This document shows, in pieces, positions 7,120-48,782 of a stretch of 48,948 nt of DNA. The notes under the pieces were generated by a model, which ran no database searches, was not told the origin of the DNA, and saw only the letters and a list, made by a program, of their open reading frames with translations. This DNA is from an uncultured Erysipelotrichaceae bacterium (GTDB lineage: Bacteria; Bacillota_I; Bacilli_A; RF39; UBA660), in the NCBI GenBank assembly GCA_902797995.1, contig CADBUX010000010.1, positions 1 through 48,948 on the forward strand, read 5' to 3'. The first letter of the stretch is position 1. Each line of letters starts with the position of its first letter. A program made the position numbers and the translations under genes.

Positions 7120-7890
7120 TTATAATTGTTTTCTAACTCTTTGAATGGCACTCTTTTCAAGTCTAGATATCTGTGCTTGACTTATACCTATTTCCTCAGC
7201 TATTTCCATCTGAGTTTTTCCAATTACAAATCTTTGATCTAAAATAAATTGTTCTCTATCACTTAAATTAGATATAGCTTTATCTACAGCAAGTCTTAAA
7301 TCTAAGTCTTGATTAGAACTACTATCAGCAACTTGATCAAACAAATAAATTGTGTCTCCTCCATCATTATATATTGGTTCAAAAAGACTTAACGGAGGTC
7401 TAAGAGCATCAAGAGCATTAACTATATCAGATTCTTCTATTTCTAAAAGCTCAGCAATTTCTTTATTAGTAGGTTCAACACCATTTTTAACAGTAAGCTC
7501 ATCTTTTAATTTTATTACTTTATAAGCAATATCTTTAATACTTCTACTAATACGAATGCTACTATTATCTCTTAAATAACGACGAACTTCACCAAGTACC
7601 ATAGGAACGCAGTATGTTGAAAACTTAACGCCATAAGATAAGTCAAAATTATCTATTGCTTTTACAAGCCCAATACATCCAACTTGAAATAAATCATCCA
7701 TATTTTCATCTTTTTTGTTGAATCTTTTTAAAATACTTAAAACAAGTTTTAAATTACCATTGATAAGTCTTTCACGAGCATTCTTATCACCTTCTTGTGC
7801 TTTTCTAAACAACTCTTCCATCTCTTCTGAAGAAAGAACTTCTATTTCACTAGTATTAACACCTGTTATTTCTACTTTATGTTTAGCCAT
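7120..7890 (-). CDS. sigG: Forespore sporulation sigma factor SigG
   Basis: The 256-aa protein follows Bacillus SigG closely. Its N-terminus KVEITGVNTSEIEVLSSEEM is the diagnostic SigG leader, bound in known systems by the anti-sigma factor Gin/CsfB. Region 2 has DDLFQVGCIGLVKAIDNFD and VKFSTYCVPMVLGEVRRYLR. Region 3 ends in SLFEPIYNDGGDTIYLFDQ. Region 4 has the helix-turn-helix GKTQMEIAEEIGISQAQISR. It directs late forespore genes after engulfment. AAAGGAG precedes the ATG. It lies 54 bases after rsmI on the same strand; no GerE-SigE-SigG cluster is seen nearby. This is the main evidence that the host forms endospores. Confidence 0.93.
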   Translation of the reverse strand: MAKHKVEITGVNTSEIEVLSSEEMEELFRKAQEGDKNARERLINGNLKLVLSILKRFNKKDENMDDLFQVGCIGLVKAIDNFDLSYGVKFSTYCVPMVLGEVRRYLRDNSSIRISRSIKDIAYKVIKLKDELTVKNGVEPTNKEIAELLEIEESDIVNALDALRPPLSLFEPIYNDGGDTIYLFDQVADSSSNQDLDLRLAVDKAISNLSDREQFILDQRFVIGKTQMEIAEEIGISQAQISRLEKSAIQRVRKQL

Positions 7891-36259: not shown

Positions 36260-37219
36260 TTAAGGAATTAAAAGTTGTTGACCTATTTGAAGTACTGTAC
36301 TATTTAGATTATTTAAACCAATTAAATCATTAACATTTACATTATTATCCCTAGCAATCTTCCACAAACTATCTCCACTTTTTACAATATAAGTTTTATA
36401 TTCACTAGTCTGAGGTATAACAAGTTCTTGTCCTATAGCAAGCAAATTACTAGTAAGACCATTTGCACTTTTTAGTTCATCCACAGAAACATCATATCTC
36501 TTAGCAATACTCCATAAAGAGTCTCCACTTCTAACAACATAAGTAATACCCATTTCATCATTTTCAGTAGGCATATCAATACCACCTGTAGGTATTAAAA
36601 GTTGTTGCCCCACCTGAAGTAAAGTAGTACCTAAATTATTATAATCAACTATATCATTAACGCTTACGTTATATTCGTTAGCAATATTCCATAGTGTATC
36701 ACCTCGTTTAACAGTATATACTACATAATCACCAGGAATCTTATCAGTAGAACTAGGAATTGTAAGAACTTGACCAATAGTAATTAAATTACCACTTATA
36801 CCATTTGCATTTTTTAAAGCTTCAACACTTACCCCAAGCCTATTAGCTATACTATATAAACTATCTCCACGCCTTACAACATAAGTATTACTACTAGAAC
36901 CAGGAGCTGTATAAGGTACACCTATATAATCTGTAACAGCTTTAACAACAGCCTCTGCATAATTATCGAGATTATTTTGCAGTTGTACAACATCATCTTT
37001 AGGACTATCTATAAAACCATATTCTACTAAAATAGGCTCAAGTCTTCCAGTTTCCCTATGTATAAAATAATAATCTTTAGAAGGATCACTAGGTAATCTT
37101 CTTTGATAATAACCACGTATATTTTGCCCTTCTCTAGCAATATTATTTAAAACAGCTTTAGATAAATTTTCATTATTACGAAGTGCATATATAACCTCAG
37201 CACCATCGCCACCTCGCAT
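36260..37219 (-). pseudogene. LysM amidase remnant, N-terminus lost at element junction
   Basis: This 319-codon frame begins within an Amidase_3 domain: GGDGAEVIYALRNNENL corresponds to GGESGLEIVYPLRDNDRL about 85 residues into the intact amidase at 25.7-26.9 kb. The first part (DPGHGG and SNH zinc ligands) is missing. Four LysM modules follow (for example YVVRRGDSLYSIANRLGV and YTVKRGDTLWNIANEYNV). Upstream, homology ends at about 37214-37219 and an in-frame TGA appears four codons before the GGT GGC homology. No ribosome site precedes the nominal ATG. The best explanation is insertion of the mobile element, with the 5' part at its far end. Confidence 0.82.
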
Positions 37220-37252: not shown

Positions 37253-37368
37253 GAAAGTGTGAAAAATTGTCACGGTTTCGACTTTATATTTCAAACTCAA
37301 TTGGTGACAAATTGTCTCCAGTTAATTCATCTTATATTTTTCAGTTGGTGACAAATTGTAACCAACTG
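37253..37368. repeat. Three 27-bp imperfect palindromes at the element's left end
   Basis: Three dyads lie at 37253-37279, 37298-37324 and 37342-37368 with starts 45 and 44 bases apart. The last two share GGTGACAAATTGT. The third is almost perfect, CAGTTGGT-g-ACAA-a-TTGT-a-ACCAACTG. The centre (C)AANTTG at positions 11-17 matches the dyads at 40.1-40.4 kb. Confidence 0.75.
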
Positions 37369-38757: not shown

Positions 38758-38784
38758 AAAAGTGTTACACTTTGTAACGGTTTA
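38758..38784. repeat. 27-bp dyad between the ATPase and UPF0158 genes
   Basis: GTTACA-ctt-TGTAAC forms the core. Flanks AAAGTGT and CGGTTT are the same as in the first left-end dyad (37253-37279), at the same positions of the 27-mer, although the cores differ. Confidence 0.65.
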
Positions 38785-38795
38785 AATACATCATT

Positions 38796-40001
38796 TTAAA
38801 ACTCTTCACTTAATAGAAAATCAATTAAATTTAGATGAATAATTCCATCACGAGATAAATCTATTTTATCAAGAGAAATAACATATTTTGGATAATTATC
38901 TTCAATAGACTTATATGCTCCAAATTCTCTTTCTATGGTATTATCGTTGCTTTTCATTTCATAAGTTACTTGGATATATTTAATATTTCCATCTTTCTTT
39001 GCTAAAAAGTCTACTTCACCATTTTTAGTTTTACCAATATATACTTCGTAGTTTCTGTTTATTAACTCATTATAAACAATATTTTCTAATACAACGTAAC
39101 TTTTAAATTCTGGATTATTATTTTTTATCTGAGCAATTCCTAAATCAGTAGCATAATACTTATTTAATGTTTTTAATACACCTTTACCAGCAATATCATA
39201 TCTATATACCTTTTTAAGTATTAATGCCTTACACAAAGCATCTATATAATTATAAAGTGTTTCATTAGATATTTTCTTATTTTCTTTATCTAAATATTTT
39301 ATAATGTTATCGGCAGAAAATTCACGCCCAGCAGTTTCAATTAAATATTGTAATATCATATCAAATAAAACTGTATCCTTTAAATTTAATCTTTTTACAA
39401 CATCTCTTAAAATAATAGAATCATATACACTATGAAGATAATTTTTTATATCTATCTCATTTGTAAATTCACATCTATTAGGAAGTCCTCCCCATTTAGC
39501 ATAGTCCCAAAAAGTATTTAAGTCATTTCCATCTTTTTTTGTTAAAGAAACATATTCCTTATAAGATAAAGGATTAATATTAAATAAAACGTATCTACCT
39601 GATAAAACTGATGATAACTCATCAGATAACATTTTACTATTAGAACCAGTTAAAAATATACTTATGTTTTTTATTGAAGCACGTAATGAATTAACAACTT
39701 TTTCAAAATTATCCACGTTCTGAATTTCATCTAAAAATAAATAATATATTTTATTATCTTTAATTTTATCTTTTATATATTTATTTAGTTTTTTATAATC
39801 TAATAAATCTTCAAATTCTATAAATTCAAAATTAATAAATATAATATGTTCTTCATCTATTTTTCTTTTATCTTTTAATTCCTCTATTATTTGATTTAAA
39901 ATAACTGATTTCCCGCATCTTCTTATACCAACCAATATTTTAATTAAATCTGAATCATAGAATCCTCTAATTTTAGATAAATAATCTTCTCTTAAAAGCA
40001 T
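38796..40001 (-). CDS. AAA ATPase with DUF4143 domain
   Basis: The 401-aa protein has an AAA_14 domain: Walker A GIRRCGKSVILNQ, Walker B YLFLDEIQNVDNFEKVV, sensor FLTGSNSKML and LSGRYVLFNINPLSYKEY. The C-terminal DUF4143 domain contains NGEVDFLAKKDGNIKYIQV, an E-x-D...Q-V pattern like a decayed or active PD-(D/E)xK fold. The family is abundant in gut bacteria and archaea, with no agreed function; a role in mobile-element or toxin-antitoxin biology has been suggested. GAGGTGAT precedes the ATG at 40001. A perfect hairpin lies about 50 bases upstream. Confidence 0.85.
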   Translation of the reverse strand: MLLREDYLSKIRGFYDSDLIKILVGIRRCGKSVILNQIIEELKDKRKIDEEHIIFINFEFIEFEDLLDYKKLNKYIKDKIKDNKIYYLFLDEIQNVDNFEKVVNSLRASIKNISIFLTGSNSKMLSDELSSVLSGRYVLFNINPLSYKEYVSLTKKDGNDLNTFWDYAKWGGLPNRCEFTNEIDIKNYLHSVYDSIILRDVVKRLNLKDTVLFDMILQYLIETAGREFSADNIIKYLDKENKKISNETLYNYIDALCKALILKKVYRYDIAGKGVLKTLNKYYATDLGIAQIKNNNPEFKSYVVLENIVYNELINRNYEVYIGKTKNGEVDFLAKKDGNIKYIQVTYEMKSNDNTIEREFGAYKSIEDNYPKYVISLDKIDLSRDGIIHLNLIDFLLSEEF

Positions 40002-40046
40002 ATAAATCACCTCTATATACATTATATATCATTTTGGTATTTTTGT

Positions 40047-40076
40047 AAAGTTATTACGTTCAACCGTAATAACTTT
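40047..40076. other. Perfect hairpin upstream of the DUF4143 ATPase
   Basis: AAGTTATTACG and CGTAATAACTT pair perfectly around TTCAAC. On the plus strand it is followed by TTTATTTTTT, resembling a terminator, but no plus-strand gene leads into it. It may be an operator or 5' leader structure of the ATPase gene. Confidence 0.6.
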
Positions 40077-40141: not shown

Positions 40142-40417
40142 AACTTCGTCGCCACTTGCGACAAAGTTAGTTTTATTTAAAATATTAATAAATTAAACAA
40201 TAATAATTATTTCTTCACATTTAAAAATCGTAACTTCTACCCAATTTGGGGAGAAGTCTTTCATAACTTTTGAACGAGTTGACCAAAAGCATAATTATCC
40301 TACTTCCATCCAAATTGGTGGGAAGTTATAGTACAAGTGTGCTAACTTTGGTCCAACTTGGACGGAAGTTAATTAATCATTCACATTAGTAACTTGTGCT
40401 CAAGTTGGTCACAAGTT
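40142..40417. repeat. Cluster of six 27-bp covarying palindromes
   Basis: Six 27-mers start at 40142, 40232, 40265, 40301, 40344 and 40391. Each has the form AACTT, five variable bases, CAANTTG (looser in two), five variable bases, AAGTT. The variable parts differ between copies but remain self-complementary, for example GTCGC/GCGAC in the first, CCCAA/TTGGG in the second, GTCCAA/TTGGAC in the fifth and AACTTGTG/CACAAGTT in the sixth. Confidence 0.85.
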
Positions 40418-40506
40418 TGTTATAATAATTATATTCAATAATTTACACATATTTTTTTTGTATTTTTGCCTCTATATGTACGAAGTTAGTTTATTACTAA
40501 CTTCAA

Positions 40507-42093
40507 TTAATCAATATCATTTAATAAACTGAATTTATAAAATATTTCAATGTTTCTATCTTTATCAATTACAATTTTATCAATAATAGATTGTAATAAT
40601 TCTCTACTTGGATTATCAAGATTTATTAATTTCTTAATTTTATCTTCATAGTTTTTCATTTCTTTTGATGACTCTTTTTTCTTTTTATCCACTGTTTGTA
40701 GTTCTTCTATTCTAGATTTAGATTGATTTAGTAATATTTCTGTTTCTCTTGATAGTCGTTTATAAGTATCTTCTGAAATATTACCTTTAAATTTATCATC
40801 ATATAGAATATCAATTTTAGCATTGTATTCTTTAATTTTTTTATTCAAAAAATTAATTTCTTCCGTTGTACTTTCTTTAGAAGTATTTTTATAATTTATA
40901 AGTCGTGCTAACGATTTTACATCAATCTCATCTAGATATTTCTTACAAGTACTTTTAATAGTACTTAGTAATGCTTCTTCTAATTTATCATAAGGCATAA
41001 AATGTGGATAACATAAATGTCTTCTAGGATCTCTTGAATATTTATTACAATTAACAGTCCAATAATCATGATTTTTTCGGTAAGTAACCGTTAAAGTATT
41101 GCCACATTCCTGACAATAAATAAGATTTTCAAATAATCTTTTTTCTCTATCAGTTTGTGTTTTCTGCTTTCTTTTAACATTACTTTGAACTTTATTAAAA
41201 ACTTCTTTACTAACTAATGGTTCATGAGTATTCTCTACAATTATCCATGCTTCTTTATTAAGAGCAACTTTTTTTTGAGATTTATATGATAATTTAGTTT
41301 GTACATTTTGTACCATATCACCTGTATACATTTGATTTTTTAGTATTTTCTTTACTGATGAAACAGTCCATATAGGATTGAATTTTTGTTTTGAACCTTC
41401 TTTCTTTTTGTATAAACTTGGTGTTGGATATTTGCAATCATTGAGATAACTTGCAATATCACTTACACTTATACCAGCATTTGCCATTTCAAATATCTTT
41501 TTAACAATAAAGGAAGTATCAGGATTAGGTAATAAATGTCCTTTATCTTCTGGGTCTCTCATATAACCAAAGCTAGGCTCACTTCCAATAAATTTTCCAT
41601 CTTCTTTTTTATTTCTTAAAATAGAACGTATCTTTTTAGAATTATCTCTGCTTGTCATATCATTAAATACTGATTTAAAAGGTATCATTTCATTACCAAC
41701 ATTATTTAAAAAAGTATCTACTTGATCAAGTACAGCAATATATCTAACTTTTTTTAAAAGAAAATACTCATCTACATAATAACCACAAGTAACATAATTT
41801 CTACCAAGTCTAGATAAATCTTTTGTTATAACACAATTTATTCTACCATTTTCAATATCTTTAAGTAATCTTTTAAAGCCTGGTCTATCAAAATTAGTAC
41901 CAGTAAATCCATCATCAATATATTCATCGACAAAGGTAAATTCATTTTGTTTTACAAAACTCATTAATAAATTTCTTTGATTAATAATACTTTCACTTTC
42001 TGATTCATAACTTTTATCAGAATCTGCTTCAGATAATCTTATATATAATCCTACTCTATAGTAACTAGGGTGTTGTAATATAGTGTTATACAC
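40507..42093 (-). CDS. Large serine recombinase (element integrase)
   Basis: The 528-aa protein has a resolvase catalytic domain (VGLYIRLSEADSD with Arg19 and nucleophile Ser21, ITKDLSRLGRNYV), a recombinase domain (GYMRDPEDKGHLLPNPDTSF, ASYLNDCKYPTPS), a zinc ribbon (YCQECGNTLTV, then Cys in TVNCNK and HLCYPHF) and a coiled coil near residues 400-470. This is the TnpX/phiC31 type that integrates and excises elements at a 2-bp core. The start is GTG at 42093 with AAAGGAG eight bases upstream. It is the probable enzyme behind the amidase insertion. Confidence 0.93.
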   Translation of the reverse strand: MYNTILQHPSYYRVGLYIRLSEADSDKSYESESESIINQRNLLMSFVKQNEFTFVDEYIDDGFTGTNFDRPGFKRLLKDIENGRINCVITKDLSRLGRNYVTCGYYVDEYFLLKKVRYIAVLDQVDTFLNNVGNEMIPFKSVFNDMTSRDNSKKIRSILRNKKEDGKFIGSEPSFGYMRDPEDKGHLLPNPDTSFIVKKIFEMANAGISVSDIASYLNDCKYPTPSLYKKKEGSKQKFNPIWTVSSVKKILKNQMYTGDMVQNVQTKLSYKSQKKVALNKEAWIIVENTHEPLVSKEVFNKVQSNVKRKQKTQTDREKRLFENLIYCQECGNTLTVTYRKNHDYWTVNCNKYSRDPRRHLCYPHFMPYDKLEEALLSTIKSTCKKYLDEIDVKSLARLINYKNTSKESTTEEINFLNKKIKEYNAKIDILYDDKFKGNISEDTYKRLSRETEILLNQSKSRIEELQTVDKKKKESSKEMKNYEDKIKKLINLDNPSRELLQSIIDKIVIDKDRNIEIFYKFSLLNDID

Positions 42094-42310: not shown

Positions 42311-42814
42311 TTATTCCTCCTCTTTTTTAAATTCCATTAATAATTTATTCATTTCTTTAAGTTCTTCATCAGTTGGTGTTTCACTTTTAATTAGTTGTCC
42401 ATTCCAATATTCATTACCACACTCATCTTTGTAATATATTTTATTTATATTACTTTTATTATATTGTTTAAAGTTTGGTTGAATACTAGAATTAAAGTTT
42501 TCTTTAATACCCTGTATCTTATTCTTTAATACATGGTCAAGTGTAATTGTACGTTTAGAATTATTAGTACTATCTTTTTCATAATTCAAATTAATATAAT
42601 TTAAAGAGGCAAGATGATTAATACTTTTAGATATTGTTTGTTTACTATATCCATGAATATTCATAAAATAACTATTTGTAGCCCAACAATATCCTTTATT
42701 CTTACACAAAGAAATTATGTGCAGTAATAATAACTTTTCTAAAGATGATATTCTACTATCACTTAATACCGATATTGGTATAATTGGATTTATAAATTCT
42801 TCCATAGTATCCAT
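42311..42814 (-). CDS. Helix-turn-helix protein of a mobile element
   Basis: The 167-aa protein has an N-terminal winged HTH: RISSLEKLLLLHIISLCKNK, CWATNSYFMNIHGYSKQTIS, KSINHLASLNYINLNY. This HTH_36 type is typical of plasmid and element replication or regulatory proteins. The C-terminal part (TPTDEELKEMNKLLMEFKK) is charged. It may regulate or help replicate the element. A perfect palindrome sits about 33 bases before its start. Confidence 0.7.
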   Translation of the reverse strand: MDTMEEFINPIIPISVLSDSRISSLEKLLLLHIISLCKNKGYCWATNSYFMNIHGYSKQTISKSINHLASLNYINLNYEKDSTNNSKRTITLDHVLKNKIQGIKENFNSSIQPNFKQYNKSNINKIYYKDECGNEYWNGQLIKSETPTDEELKEMNKLLMEFKKEEE

Positions 42815-45055: not shown

Positions 45056-45988
45056 TTATTTTAAATACTTTCTAAATGTGTTTTTGAATAATTCCACAGT
45101 ATTACTCATCCATTCAAATGCTTCATCCCAAGATTCCATATTTGGATCAACATCTAAATTAGATACTAATTTAATTCTAGAAGCCTTCTTACCTTCTAAA
45201 GCCATCCAATCAAGATTATGAGAAATAGCATTATTTATTTCATCTTTGTACTTTTCTAATGAATAATATAAATCCTTGTTATCATTAATATATAATTCAC
45301 AAGCAATCTCATGTTTTTTAGTATTATATGTTAAATCCAAATGGCAATCACTACTTCCAATAAAAATATTATACCAATGTTGTGGCAATGGTTTTATAAG
45401 TGAAAAACTAACTTTCTTTTCTTCACAATAATTTTTAAAATCTTCCCAAAAATTTAATTGAATTGTTGATGCATTACTCATATTTTTTGAAACATTCTTT
45501 CTAATTGCTTTTGCCCAATTGTTTGGTTTACTAACTATTTGAAACTTAGGTGCAATTTGTGAATCACCTATTTTCCATAGTTCTATTTGCACTAAGAATA
45601 TGTTTATGTGCTCATCAGAATGTTCATTTAACCAATCAACAGCTTGTTTATGTTCATCTCTAACATCCTTAACTATCCATATTTGAATATCAGCATCAAA
45701 ACCTGCTGAATAAACAATTACTTTCCCTAAATGGTCATGATTTGTCATTTCTAATTGATTTTCAATAATAATTGTTTTATCCGTTTCTTCTTCATGTGCT
45801 TTAATATCGACATTGTATCTACCTGTTGATGCTTCAGTCTCATCTACAGTAATATTAAATCCTAATTCCTCACTTAATAGTTTAATATTATTTTCTTTTG
45901 CTAGCCATTTTGTAAAATCAGTCGCCTCATTTTTCCAAACTTCACGTAAATTTGTTATTTTTTCTAATTTTCCCAAATTATAATTCAT
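45056..45988 (-). CDS. DUF4268 protein with PD-(D/E)xK-like N-terminus
   Basis: The 310-aa protein has a nuclease-like N-terminal domain: GRYNVDIKA (Asp61), TIIIENQLE (Glu76-x-Gln78), TNHDHLGKVIVYSAGFDAD, a layout like NucS/DUF91 endonucleases. The C-terminal half is DUF4268 (FWEDFKNYCEEKKVSFS, GSSDCHLDLTYNTKKHEIAC, LDWMALEGKKASRI). Such genes recur beside restriction and BREX-like loci. AGGAGGA precedes the ATG. It follows the specificity subunit by 11 bases, so it is part of the same operon. Confidence 0.8.
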   Translation of the reverse strand: MNYNLGKLEKITNLREVWKNEATDFTKWLAKENNIKLLSEELGFNITVDETEASTGRYNVDIKAHEEETDKTIIIENQLEMTNHDHLGKVIVYSAGFDADIQIWIVKDVRDEHKQAVDWLNEHSDEHINIFLVQIELWKIGDSQIAPKFQIVSKPNNWAKAIRKNVSKNMSNASTIQLNFWEDFKNYCEEKKVSFSLIKPLPQHWYNIFIGSSDCHLDLTYNTKKHEIACELYINDNKDLYYSLEKYKDEINNAISHNLDWMALEGKKASRIKLVSNLDVDPNMESWDEAFEWMSNTVELFKNTFRKYLK

Positions 45989-45999
45989 TACTTATCCTC

Positions 46000-46986
46000 C
46001 TATAAAATATCACCATAAGGCAAATCTTTAATATATTTTTCCATATATTTCCAATCAGGAATAAATCCATTATCTGATAAAAGAGTTTTTGTATCAATTA
46101 TTGGATTATTTGAAGAATCACATAATATTGGAAGCTTTATTAGTTCATCAGCTAAACGTTCTTGGGATAATTTTCTACCATAACTGTATTTATATTTAAA
46201 TGTATTCATAACTGTAGTAATAAAAATAGCAGTATATGTATTAAACTCATTAAATTTAGGAATTAATATTCCACAGTCAGTATTGGCATTAAATGGGTAA
46301 TCATGATATGAAACATACCCAGTACCTACACCATTAAATGAAGCAGTTAAGCAATTAATATATTTTGGTGAAACATTTCCATAATATGCAATTCCTTGAT
46401 TTTTATCTGTCGCAGAAACAATAGGTACTAATCCAGGCTCAATTTCATTTAAAGAAGTAATAGTCCCTCTTTCTATATCAAATAGCTTACTAATTTTAAA
46501 ATATTCCCATTTTTGAAAAGTAAAATTTGAGCAATCACTTATATTGTTATTAGTCTGTGGTAATAATAATTCTCCTTCATCAACCCATTCTGGAAATTCA
46601 TCTGGGACCTCAATATCTTGAATATATTTATTTACTTCTCTACCAAACGCAGAAAATTTAAATCTATTTTCTCTTAAAACATAGCAATAAAACCATTTTT
46701 GTATCTCTGACATATATTTCTTTGGTCTCAAAACATCAACATTTTGCGCAGTAACAAAATCCTCATCTTGAACAAACGCTGACAAAAGATATGAACCTCC
46801 AAGTGGAACCGTAATATCTCCTTTTTTAAATATTTTTACATTTTTGTCTGGAATAATTCTACCAACTACACCATTATTATTAGAATTTCTTGAGACAAAA
46901 TTAATACCATTCTCATCTATTTGTTGTTTATCAAAATCTAATTTACTACCAGTATAAATATAAAATAAATCACTTAACTTTGCCAT
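46000..46986 (-). CDS. Restriction-modification specificity subunit (S / BcgIB-like)
   Basis: The 328-aa protein has two target-recognition halves: MAKLSDLFYIYTGSKLDFDK with DENGINFVSRNSNNNGVVG, and WEYFKISKLFDIERGTITS with VPIVSATDKNQGIAYYGN. Each is followed by a conserved helix region. This is the HsdS fold that sets the DNA sequence recognised. Its size is close to BcgI B (341). GGAGGAA lies before the ATG. It overlaps the methylase gene by 13 bases. Confidence 0.85.
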   Translation of the reverse strand: MAKLSDLFYIYTGSKLDFDKQQIDENGINFVSRNSNNNGVVGRIIPDKNVKIFKKGDITVPLGGSYLLSAFVQDEDFVTAQNVDVLRPKKYMSEIQKWFYCYVLRENRFKFSAFGREVNKYIQDIEVPDEFPEWVDEGELLLPQTNNNISDCSNFTFQKWEYFKISKLFDIERGTITSLNEIEPGLVPIVSATDKNQGIAYYGNVSPKYINCLTASFNGVGTGYVSYHDYPFNANTDCGILIPKFNEFNTYTAIFITTVMNTFKYKYSYGRKLSQERLADELIKLPILCDSSNNPIIDTKTLLSDNGFIPDWKYMEKYIKDLPYGDIL

Positions 46987-48782
46987 ATGTTTCCTCCGTT
47001 TGCAATTTTATATCCAAGATATTCATTAATTACTTTTTGAAAATCATATTTATTAAGTTTTGAATAGTCAGTTTCCATATATGCTTCAGCAAGCCATTCA
47101 TCATTTGGACCGACTTTTTTTACTACAGATAATCCAACTTCAGTTTTTCGTTCTCTATAAAGTTGCAACCATTTACTTTCAATTTTATTCCATATACCCG
47201 GTTCTCGTTCTAATCTACCAAGATTTTTTCTTTTTATAAACCCATCATCTTTAAAATATCCAAAGAATGTTTCTTTAATTGGAGCATTTTCATGTCTAAC
47301 ACCTAAATTAAATACCATGCAGCATGCTACGGCATTTGCACCTGGATAAAACATATCTGCAGGTAATGAAAATACTGCATCTAATGTATGTTCCTCTAAC
47401 ATTTTCTTTTTAAAATATTGTAAATCCGCTGATGCACCTATAGCACATTGCATCGGTAATAGAACAGCTAGTTTTCCAGTTTTAACTTTTGAAGCAATAT
47501 AATATACATAATGAAACCCTTTAGATGGATCTGTGGTTACTTTTGAATTCCATGTTTCTACATATTTAGGATTGCAATGTTTTCTTTGCCCATTATAGGG
47601 TGGATTCATTAACACTACATTTATACCTGCATCAGTATAATTATCTTCAGAAAAACATGAACCCTGAATGATATTTGAATTACCATCACCATGAATTAAC
47701 ATGTTAGTCGTTGATAATCCAAATGCTGTTTCTTCATACTCAATTCCATATATTTGTTTTTGCTTAACATGGTTTCTTTGTTCCTCTGTATCACAATCAT
47801 CTAATGCATCAGTTAAAGCTCTCACCAAAAATGCCCCGGAACCACAACATGGGTCTAAAACAACAGAATTCCTATTAACACCAGTAACTCTGCACATAAA
47901 ATGTACAATATGATCTGGAGTAAAAGCTTGATTTTTATCTGTCTTACCTACATATTTATTAAAAGTTGTAAAGAATAAATTTAATAAATCTTGCCCCATA
48001 GTACTTTTATCATTAATAGAAGGAAGTATATCTTTTTTAACATGGTTTAAAATATCTTGAAATTCAGAATCTTTTAATTCTCGTACATCCTGAGAGTTTA
48101 AAACCTTAGTCTTTAAAATACTTAACTTATAAGCCTTATTTAAATCTTTTTCTAATAAGTTAGTCAATTTACTTTCAACCCCTGCAATTATTTGAGCAGT
48201 AGATAAATTTTCATAAATTAATCCATTTTTTAATGCCAAAAGACAGGTGCCTACAAATTGGCTTCTTATTTTTTCATTAATACCATACTTATGTAATAGT
48301 TCATTTAAACTATATGTATTTTGTATTAATGTCAATTTATCATTTGTTGTTCCATAATAAATATCAAAATATTCATCAAAAGTTTTAATTATTCTTTCAT
48401 TTTTTTGATAATTTTCTAAAGAAATTACATCATTAATATTGTACCACACATATATTTCATCTTTGCTTGTACTAGCTAATATCGCAACAATTTGATTATT
48501 ATTCAATTCTCTTTCAAAATTAATATAATTTTGTAACTGAATTAAGCCATTTTTTAAATCTGCTCCATTTAAATTTTGCTTTGTTTCAATTAGAATTGAC
48601 AATTTATCATTTTCAAATCTAATATCCAAGTCTTTATACATTCTTTTTGCATCTTCAGATAAATAATCTAAATAATTTTTTCCAATTGCTTCTAGACCTT
48701 TCTTATAACTATATTCATCATTTTCTATATTACTTTTTAAATATTTTCTTCCAATTTTAGAAATAATATCTGCTCTTTTCAT
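46974..48782 (-). CDS. BcgI-like fused restriction-methylation subunit (N6-adenine MTase)
   Basis: The 602-aa protein contains an N6_Mtase domain: motif I LDPCCGSGAFLVRAL, then IYGIEYEETAFGLSTTNMLI, motif IV VLMNPPYNGQ and SLPADMFYPGANAVACCMVF. The first 110 residues (DLDIRFENDKLSILIETKQN, with Asp53, Glu66 and Lys68) look like a PD-(D/E)xK nuclease. Both activities in one chain of about 600 residues with a separate S subunit matches the type IIB/IIG BcgI architecture (A chain 637 aa) rather than classic type I. AGGAGTG before the ATG lies at the end of the RHH gene. No separate HsdR is seen in the window. Confidence 0.87.
   Translation of the reverse strand: MKRADIISKIGRKYLKSNIENDEYSYKKGLEAIGKNYLDYLSEDAKRMYKDLDIRFENDKLSILIETKQNLNGADLKNGLIQLQNYINFERELNNNQIVAILASTSKDEIYVWYNINDVISLENYQKNERIIKTFDEYFDIYYGTTNDKLTLIQNTYSLNELLHKYGINEKIRSQFVGTCLLALKNGLIYENLSTAQIIAGVESKLTNLLEKDLNKAYKLSILKTKVLNSQDVRELKDSEFQDILNHVKKDILPSINDKSTMGQDLLNLFFTTFNKYVGKTDKNQAFTPDHIVHFMCRVTGVNRNSVVLDPCCGSGAFLVRALTDALDDCDTEEQRNHVKQKQIYGIEYEETAFGLSTTNMLIHGDGNSNIIQGSCFSEDNYTDAGINVVLMNPPYNGQRKHCNPKYVETWNSKVTTDPSKGFHYVYYIASKVKTGKLAVLLPMQCAIGASADLQYFKKKMLEEHTLDAVFSLPADMFYPGANAVACCMVFNLGVRHENAPIKETFFGYFKDDGFIKRKNLGRLEREPGIWNKIESKWLQLYRERKTEVGLSVVKKVGPNDEWLAEAYMETDYSKLNKYDFQKVINEYLGYKIANGGNIWQS

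Follow-up and report, generated by a model that had tools for sequence, protein, structure and literature searches.

Arrays of parS sites, centromere arrays and parS mimics are already known. The sopC locus of F is composed of tandem inverted repeats with a spacing of about 43 bp, which are bound by a ParB-type protein, and in Bacillus subtilis a parS is located inside spo0J. Integron attC sites are also inverted repeats with conserved ends and a variable self-complementary interior situated near a recombinase, while the att sites of large serine recombinases (LSR) are about 40–50 bp long with an even 2-bp core. The chromosomal parS (NBS) is a nearly invariant palindrome of 16 bp read by a ParB-family HTH, in which residue 173 has been experimentally shown to be a specificity residue of ParB/Noc (PMC7383237). 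SGI1 has two functional sites mimicking IncC parS, which bind the ParB of the helper plasmid, stabilize SGI1 and destabilize or expel the helper (PMC10954446).

The locus described here belongs to a 48,948-nt stretch of DNA from an uncultured Erysipelotrichaceae bacterium, the whole of which was analysed (the window), and consists of six 27-bp dyads at positions 40142–40417. They probably represent a cluster of parS-like sites for the ICE- or plasmid-type ParBs of other elements, serving for hijacking of their partition or for causing incompatibility. The parS-like identity of the sites is well supported by the sequence comparisons, while the binding of the array by several ParBs and the hijack or incompatibility outcome are what we infer from it. 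In contrast to sopC, which has a single repeat sequence and is placed beside sopAB, the window array is of mixed sequence and lacks parAB. The attC sites are recognized by a tyrosine integrase as folded single strands and have gene cassettes in between, none of which applies to the window array, and the integron-attC identity was rejected: the recombinase is a large serine enzyme and not a tyrosine IntI, and the sites, spaced by 33–90 bp, have neither cassettes nor ORFs between them. With the chromosomal parS (PMC7383237) the dyads would share a palindrome read by a ParB-family HTH with residue 173 as a specificity residue, but they are 27 bp long, and between their constant ends and constant centre the interior is hypervariable, switching together with the helix residues. 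The likeness to SGI1 (PMC10954446) lies in inverted-repeat sites for a foreign ParB on an integrative element that has no cognate partition system of its own; however, the two sites of SGI1 share a single specificity, directed at one helper family, and their binding is demonstrated, whereas here 6–10 mixed sites with a predicted binding are located behind a serine recombinase. The sequence-only reading, which knew of no described repeat class of this form, was therefore half right, since parS arrays and stolen parS sites were known before.

All six copies listed by that reading were found. Half-sites of the ParB type were present in dyad 1 (40142–40168; TGTCG and CGTCG; 11 of 13 Watson-Crick pairs), dyad 2 (40232–40258; CTACC and CTCCC; 11 of 13), dyad 4 (40301–40327; CCATC and CCCAC; 10 of 13), dyad 5 (40344–40370; TGGTC and CCGTC; 11 of 13) and dyad 6 (40391–40417; GTGCT and GTGAC; 11 of 13), while dyad 3 (40265–40291; 8 of 13) was degenerate with a CGAGTTG core. 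None of the six copies was a perfect palindrome: the arms of most array dyads had one or two mismatches, and dyads 2 and 4 had one altered end base each. The pattern AACTTN5CAANTTGN5AAGTT matched seven times in the window with up to three mismatches against 1.36 expected (none of 100 shuffles reached seven), and at no more than one mismatch its five matches in the 1.07-Mb genome were all inside the array. The compensatory change in the interiors proved to be real, with the interior covariation above both controls: standard pairs made up 84.6% against 74.8 ± 2.7% in shuffled copies (0 of 500 as high), and the covariation score was 0.303 against 0.141 (1 of 500 as high). After sliding the partner by one base the pairing dropped to 47–49%. 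The interior pairs of the six dyads numbered 20 of 30, compared to 10.1 ± 2.9 with the arms dealt anew, and in 42 array or LSR-end dyads, chosen on ends and centre alone, 145 of 210 compared to 67.5 ± 6.9.

The sequence-only reading had taken the covariation as a sign of either a hairpin or a symmetric protein site. That the dyad itself is kept was borne out, and the protein site is favoured over the hairpin: covariation among the copies needs no folded strand, because symmetric sites of differing specificity give the same pattern. Structured RNA or single-stranded DNA hairpins, such as 3′ stabilizers, terminators or attC-like folded sites, are a very improbable explanation. On each strand the region did fold better than shuffled versions of it (z −5.6 and −7.4), and integron attC sites likewise keep structure over sequence, but the folding, significant as it was, was long-range and uninformative on mechanism. 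The non-Watson-Crick interior pairs on the recombinase-sense strand comprised 16 G.T and 16 A.C (5 and 9, respectively, in the parB genes considered below), G.T being no commoner than A.C on either strand; a stem would favour G.T on one of them, which means that both DNA strands are constrained alike. The array had no T-tracts, no terminator call and no Rfam match (the search of the window returned a single tRNA only), and a structure-only constraint cannot explain why protein residues predict the interior sequence. Two narrower candidates were rejected, namely intrinsic terminators (none of the six dyads was terminator-like) and a structured RNA family, for the lack of an Rfam match and the equal numbers of G.T and A.C. 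A terminator-like hairpin AAAGTTATTACG...CGTAATAACTTT with a T-rich tail is present outside the array at 40047–40076. Neither phage nor plasmid records gave a BLASTN match to the array, and in the relatives the matches were short and A+T-rich only.

The array is located between the stop codon of the LSR gene (40507–42093, minus strand; Pfam Resolvase, Recombinase and Zn_ribbon_recom) and a cargo gene for an AAA_14/DUF4143 ATPase on its far side (38796–40022, minus strand), which is replaced by BRO-N or AbiEi-like genes in the relatives. An HTH_36 protein gene (42311–42814, minus strand) remains next to the LSR gene in the related loci L058 and L063, and a hairpin GAAGTTAGT-loop-ACTAACTTC follows directly after the LSR stop codon at 40482–40504. 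Further cargo beside the LSR gene, at 45056–48782, includes a type I-like methylase, a specificity subunit and a DUF4268 protein. The array is 3 kb away from the apparent end of the element in the window, a truncated amidase gene. This amidase-LysM gene (36260–37219) has lost its N-terminal half: the Amidase_3 match begins at profile position 85 and is immediately preceded by an in-frame stop. An identical break point, GAGGTGGCGATGGTGC, is found after the LSR end in L083, L085, L105 and others, which makes it a likely attB of these recombinases.

Relatives were collected by pattern search and recombinase search, with the same-family genomes labelled as uncultured Tenericutes or Bacilli. At least six further genomes of the same family had arrays of the window's dyad family behind orthologous LSR genes: L058 (LSR 97% identical, 7 dyads), L063 (59%, 9–10 dyads), the 89% group of L059, L079 and L080, and L081 (74%); a single dyad was left behind the orthologue in L078. 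No array was found behind the LSR relatives L082 (72%), L083–L086 (62–64%) and L105. The array is thus an accessory feature and not a fixed part of the recombinase; relatives free of dyads, named in advance as grounds for refutation, do exist in part of the group.

The main rival reading, which we consider unlikely, is an operator array, that is, sites of ParB- or BRO-like regulators controlling the adjacent cargo gene or the recombinase in response to the presence of other mobile elements. The arrays are indeed upstream of cargo genes, and in the window, L058, L059 and L063 they take up the interval from the LSR end to where the next gene begins; in L058 and L059 the genes that begin next to the array are BRO-N genes, coding for DNA-binding proteins themselves, and in the ICE L240 one of the dyads outside parB shares sequence with the 5′ end of a regulator gene. 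However, the neighbour gene changes between elements while the array stays, the specificity differs from dyad to dyad in contrast to a normal operator set, and a clear promoter geometry was not seen.

Comparison of the window with its closest relative, L058, revealed nearly identical spacers and identical dyads 1 and 6, with the homology ending just after dyad 1, whereas dyads 2 and 3 differed strongly in both arms. Dyad 2 of L058 is CTGTT/CTGAC, the position of the degenerate dyad 3 is occupied by a good dyad, and dyad 5 is kept with two changes. That LSRs of 97% identity are accompanied by different interiors in dyads 2 and 3 speaks against sites for the recombinase or its accessory protein, i.e., recombination enhancers or parts of attP/attL, which is an improbable reading also because the array dyads are odd-centred 27-mers, unlike the LSR att sites, their specificity varies within one array, and the same dyad occurs in parB genes with an interior tracking the ParB helix. 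In its favour, the arrays are always 3′ of the LSR gene, and in the clade of LSRs with 57–60% identity one dyad is placed directly at the stop codon, followed by the conserved TACATA..GATAAACTACTTATA; this position, near a likely att half-site, would also fit some involvement of the recombinase. The recombinase, HTH_36 or RHH protein, named for a gel-shift check from the sequence alone, are not the best candidate binders, and the ParBs of other elements are better ones.

The 5-nt loop of the post-LSR hairpin is AATAA in one of the two elements and its reverse complement in the other (window 40482–40504, L058 at about 7866–7888), which indicates that template switching does happen in these repeats. 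The dyads might then be a mutational product, with quasi-palindrome correction by template switching keeping the arms complementary without any function, and the centre bases also flip between A and T and between C and G among the in-gene dyads (VTNCH/VTICH). Such an origin is nevertheless highly unlikely, because only the interior varies, the ends and centre remaining constant, and because the interiors track the recognition-helix residues in three protein families. Given this helix-base code, described below, template switching is insufficient as the main cause, although it may still contribute.

The reading of the dyads as parS-like sites comes from the genes in which the same dyad was encountered. 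Several of the pattern matches shared a single coding position in ParB-like genes. In a scan of viral contigs the interior pairing was bimodal: out of 61 matched positions, 28 had 4–5 of 5 pairs, many of them being ParB-like genes, and 29 had 0–2. In a set of 80 parB loci obtained by protein search, one genome per species and regardless of any palindrome, nearly all had a palindrome of 21–35 bp where DLT-x-x-Q/P-V/L-x-x-K-L is encoded, immediately ahead of the HTH (such as AACTTGTTCCCAAGTTGGGAACAAGTT, AACTTCCGCCCAACTTGGGCGGAAGTT, AACTTCCCGACAACTTGTCGGGAAGTT and AACTTCTGTTCAACTTGAACAGAAGTT). The dyad was in frame, with at least 9 of 13 pairs in 97 of the 103 parB genes examined, in hosts including Paenibacillus, Blautia, Syntrophomonas, Desulfosporosinus and other Firmicutes, and the interiors paired in 240 of 270 cases compared to 108 ± 9. 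Coding coincidence as the source of these matches was rejected, as near-perfect palindromes appeared in the palindrome-blind set. The same in-gene dyad was also detected in viral HTH proteins that are not close relatives of the ICE ParB query (L251:7470, L258:2499 and L263:4951), of which L251, with a SKDTVAR helix and a CTTCGC interior, follows the ParB code.

The interior of the parB palindrome covaried with the recognition helix G-x-S-x1-x2-x3-I-x4-R-Y, where x1 corresponds to residue 173 of the Caulobacter ParB according to the alignment made in this analysis. The code was computed on 55 ParBs with less than 85% identity and 226 protein columns. For the two central interior bases the top column was x2, equivalent to residue 174 (z 15.5), followed by x1 (173; z 7.2), the column two residues before x1, and x4 (177), while for the outer three bases the best columns were those directly behind the palindrome codons, with x4 next. 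Asparagine at x2 corresponded to CC (16 of 17), aspartate to CG (5 of 5), arginine to GC or GA (9 of 9), glutamate to CA (3 of 3), alanine to CT (2 of 2), and serine or threonine mostly to AC or TC. The central bases are not accounted for by relatedness. When ParB pairs were restricted to those sharing 90% identity or more outside the palindrome and HTH, the pairs with the same x2 had the same central bases in 82 of 82 cases, and those with a different x2 in 0 of 50. With high probability, the in-gene palindrome is a binding site of the ParB encoded by that gene.

Within the fetched flanks, most other ParB loci had no second copy of the site (1 in 95). L371 has two copies outside the gene in addition to the in-gene site, and the three sites of L239 agree in specificity. 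The ParB of L240 (helix SGRTVQRY) has lost its in-gene palindrome, and two dyads on the same contig, not located in parB, belong to the CCCGAC/CTCGAC class that GR helices would predict.

The window array has the fixed geometry of parS-type inverted repeats, with odd-centred dyads of 27 bp and the same ends and centre as in parB; an interior set by HTH residues was established for the in-gene family and, for the array copies, follows through the shared vocabulary only. Thirty-six of 84 array halves belonged to the ParB vocabulary compared to 17.6 ± 3.1 by chance. TGTCG of dyad 1 matches the in-gene sites of ParBs with ESKDTIRRY or ESRDQVFRY helices, CTACC of dyad 2 those with ESRNQIQRY, and CCCAC of dyad 4 the in-gene site of a ParB with the DSLTQVRRF helix in genome G006, where this resident ParB has the in-gene half CCCAC and one array dyad has it as well. 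Several array halves had no match among the ParBs compared, which weighs against the parS-like reading, as do the mostly imperfect arms and the frequent joining of two different half-sites in one dyad (for example, CTGAC and CTGTT). The halves of the L063 array include CCCGA, CGACA, CTGCA, CCGAC, GTGGC, CTGAC and CGTGC. Since the halves of the window array fall into several classes, a single ParB cannot be meant. A cognate ParB was found neither nearby nor in the cell. There was no ParB-bearing element of matching specificity beside the window array, a further point against the reading. The search for ICE-type ParBs in the array-bearing genomes G000, G153 and G020 gave only the chromosomal Spo0J/Noc type above the threshold, for which reason the array was classified as parS-like sites for foreign ParBs and not as the element's own centromere. 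G006 and G329 have one ICE-type ParB each.

In the proposed mechanism, the ends AACTT/AAGTT and the centre CAANTTG would be the constant part of the site, and the five bases in between would confer the specificity, being read by the ParB recognition-helix residues 173, 174 and 177; the interior would be self-complementary because ParB acts as a dimer. The interiors would differ from copy to copy because the array gathers sites for several ParB specificities. If the cell also harbours an ICE, plasmid or phage with a ParB, this ParB would be loaded onto the array, and either the excised or replicating element would gain a share in partition, or the ParB would be titrated and the rival destabilized (centromere incompatibility). 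A mixed array would exert an SGI1-like effect against several rivals. If so, mobile elements compete by means of arrays of multiple specificity that serve as decoys or handles for rival partition proteins; so far such competition has been known from the one-helper case of SGI1.

Similar self-matching was found in two other families. The BRO-N genes (76 distinct segments) had a different in-frame palindrome, VTNCH and its variants, in which the third base of the Val/Ala codon was complementary to the first base of the codon located 12 nt further on in 52 of 52 cases. The palindrome type tracked residues 51, 52, 55 and 56 (YWxxLKx[RK]) together with 45 and 48, with z up to 22–24 over 182 columns. 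In the AlphaFold model (mean pLDDT 75) residues 48–56 are positioned along the helix 46–59, with residue 45 just before it and a beta-hairpin following; the modelled domain is consistent with a winged HTH, and Foldseek against PDB returned no significant match. In the ORF6N genes the 9-bp arms were perfect in 20 of 20 cases, and the interior tracked residues in K-x-I-N-x-A-V. Translational bypass, as well as a selfish hairpin as the whole story, were rejected, the in-gene dyads being all openly read in frame and linked to helix residues; a REP or Rickettsia-palindromic-element reading was considered and set aside as well.

Taken together, a wider generalization is conceivable, which we put forward tentatively as somewhat short of an even chance: the unrelated ICE-type ParB, BRO-N and ORF6N families may each carry their own site within the gene, with the residues and the site switching as a cassette of about 100 bp, and serine-recombinase elements may assemble these sites, with their many specificities, into non-coding arrays that work as traps or handles with multiple targets among competing mobile elements. 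The self-matching in-gene sites in three families may be a larger finding than the array, and no prior description of in-gene ICE ParB or BRO-N sites was found in the open-access literature. If confirmed, they would constitute a DNA-recognition code for ICE ParB, BRO-N and ORF6N readable from the genome sequence alone, since the target of each protein is written in its own gene; this would also account for the hypervariable peptide segments of the three families, and the specificity prediction would be directly testable for thousands of uncharacterised regulators.

The ORF6N genes of L289–L318 had perfect in-frame palindromes with up to 20 pairs (ATTTGAACTTGAAGTCCCAATTTGGGACTTCAAGTTCAAAT in L318). 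In the window, a second array of the BRO type is present at 37253–37368 in the non-coding region between the truncated amidase gene and a TPR gene: a weak dyad at 37253–37279 (GTGTGAAAAATTGTCACGG core; 10 of 13 pairs), another at 37298–37324 (GGTGACAAATTGTCTCC core) and a third at 37342–37368 (GGTGACAAATTGTAACC core; 12 of 13 pairs), the last matching the BRO-N in-gene family. A lone dyad of the BRO type, TGTTACACTTTGTAACG, is located at 38763–38779 between the UPF0158 and AAA_14 genes.
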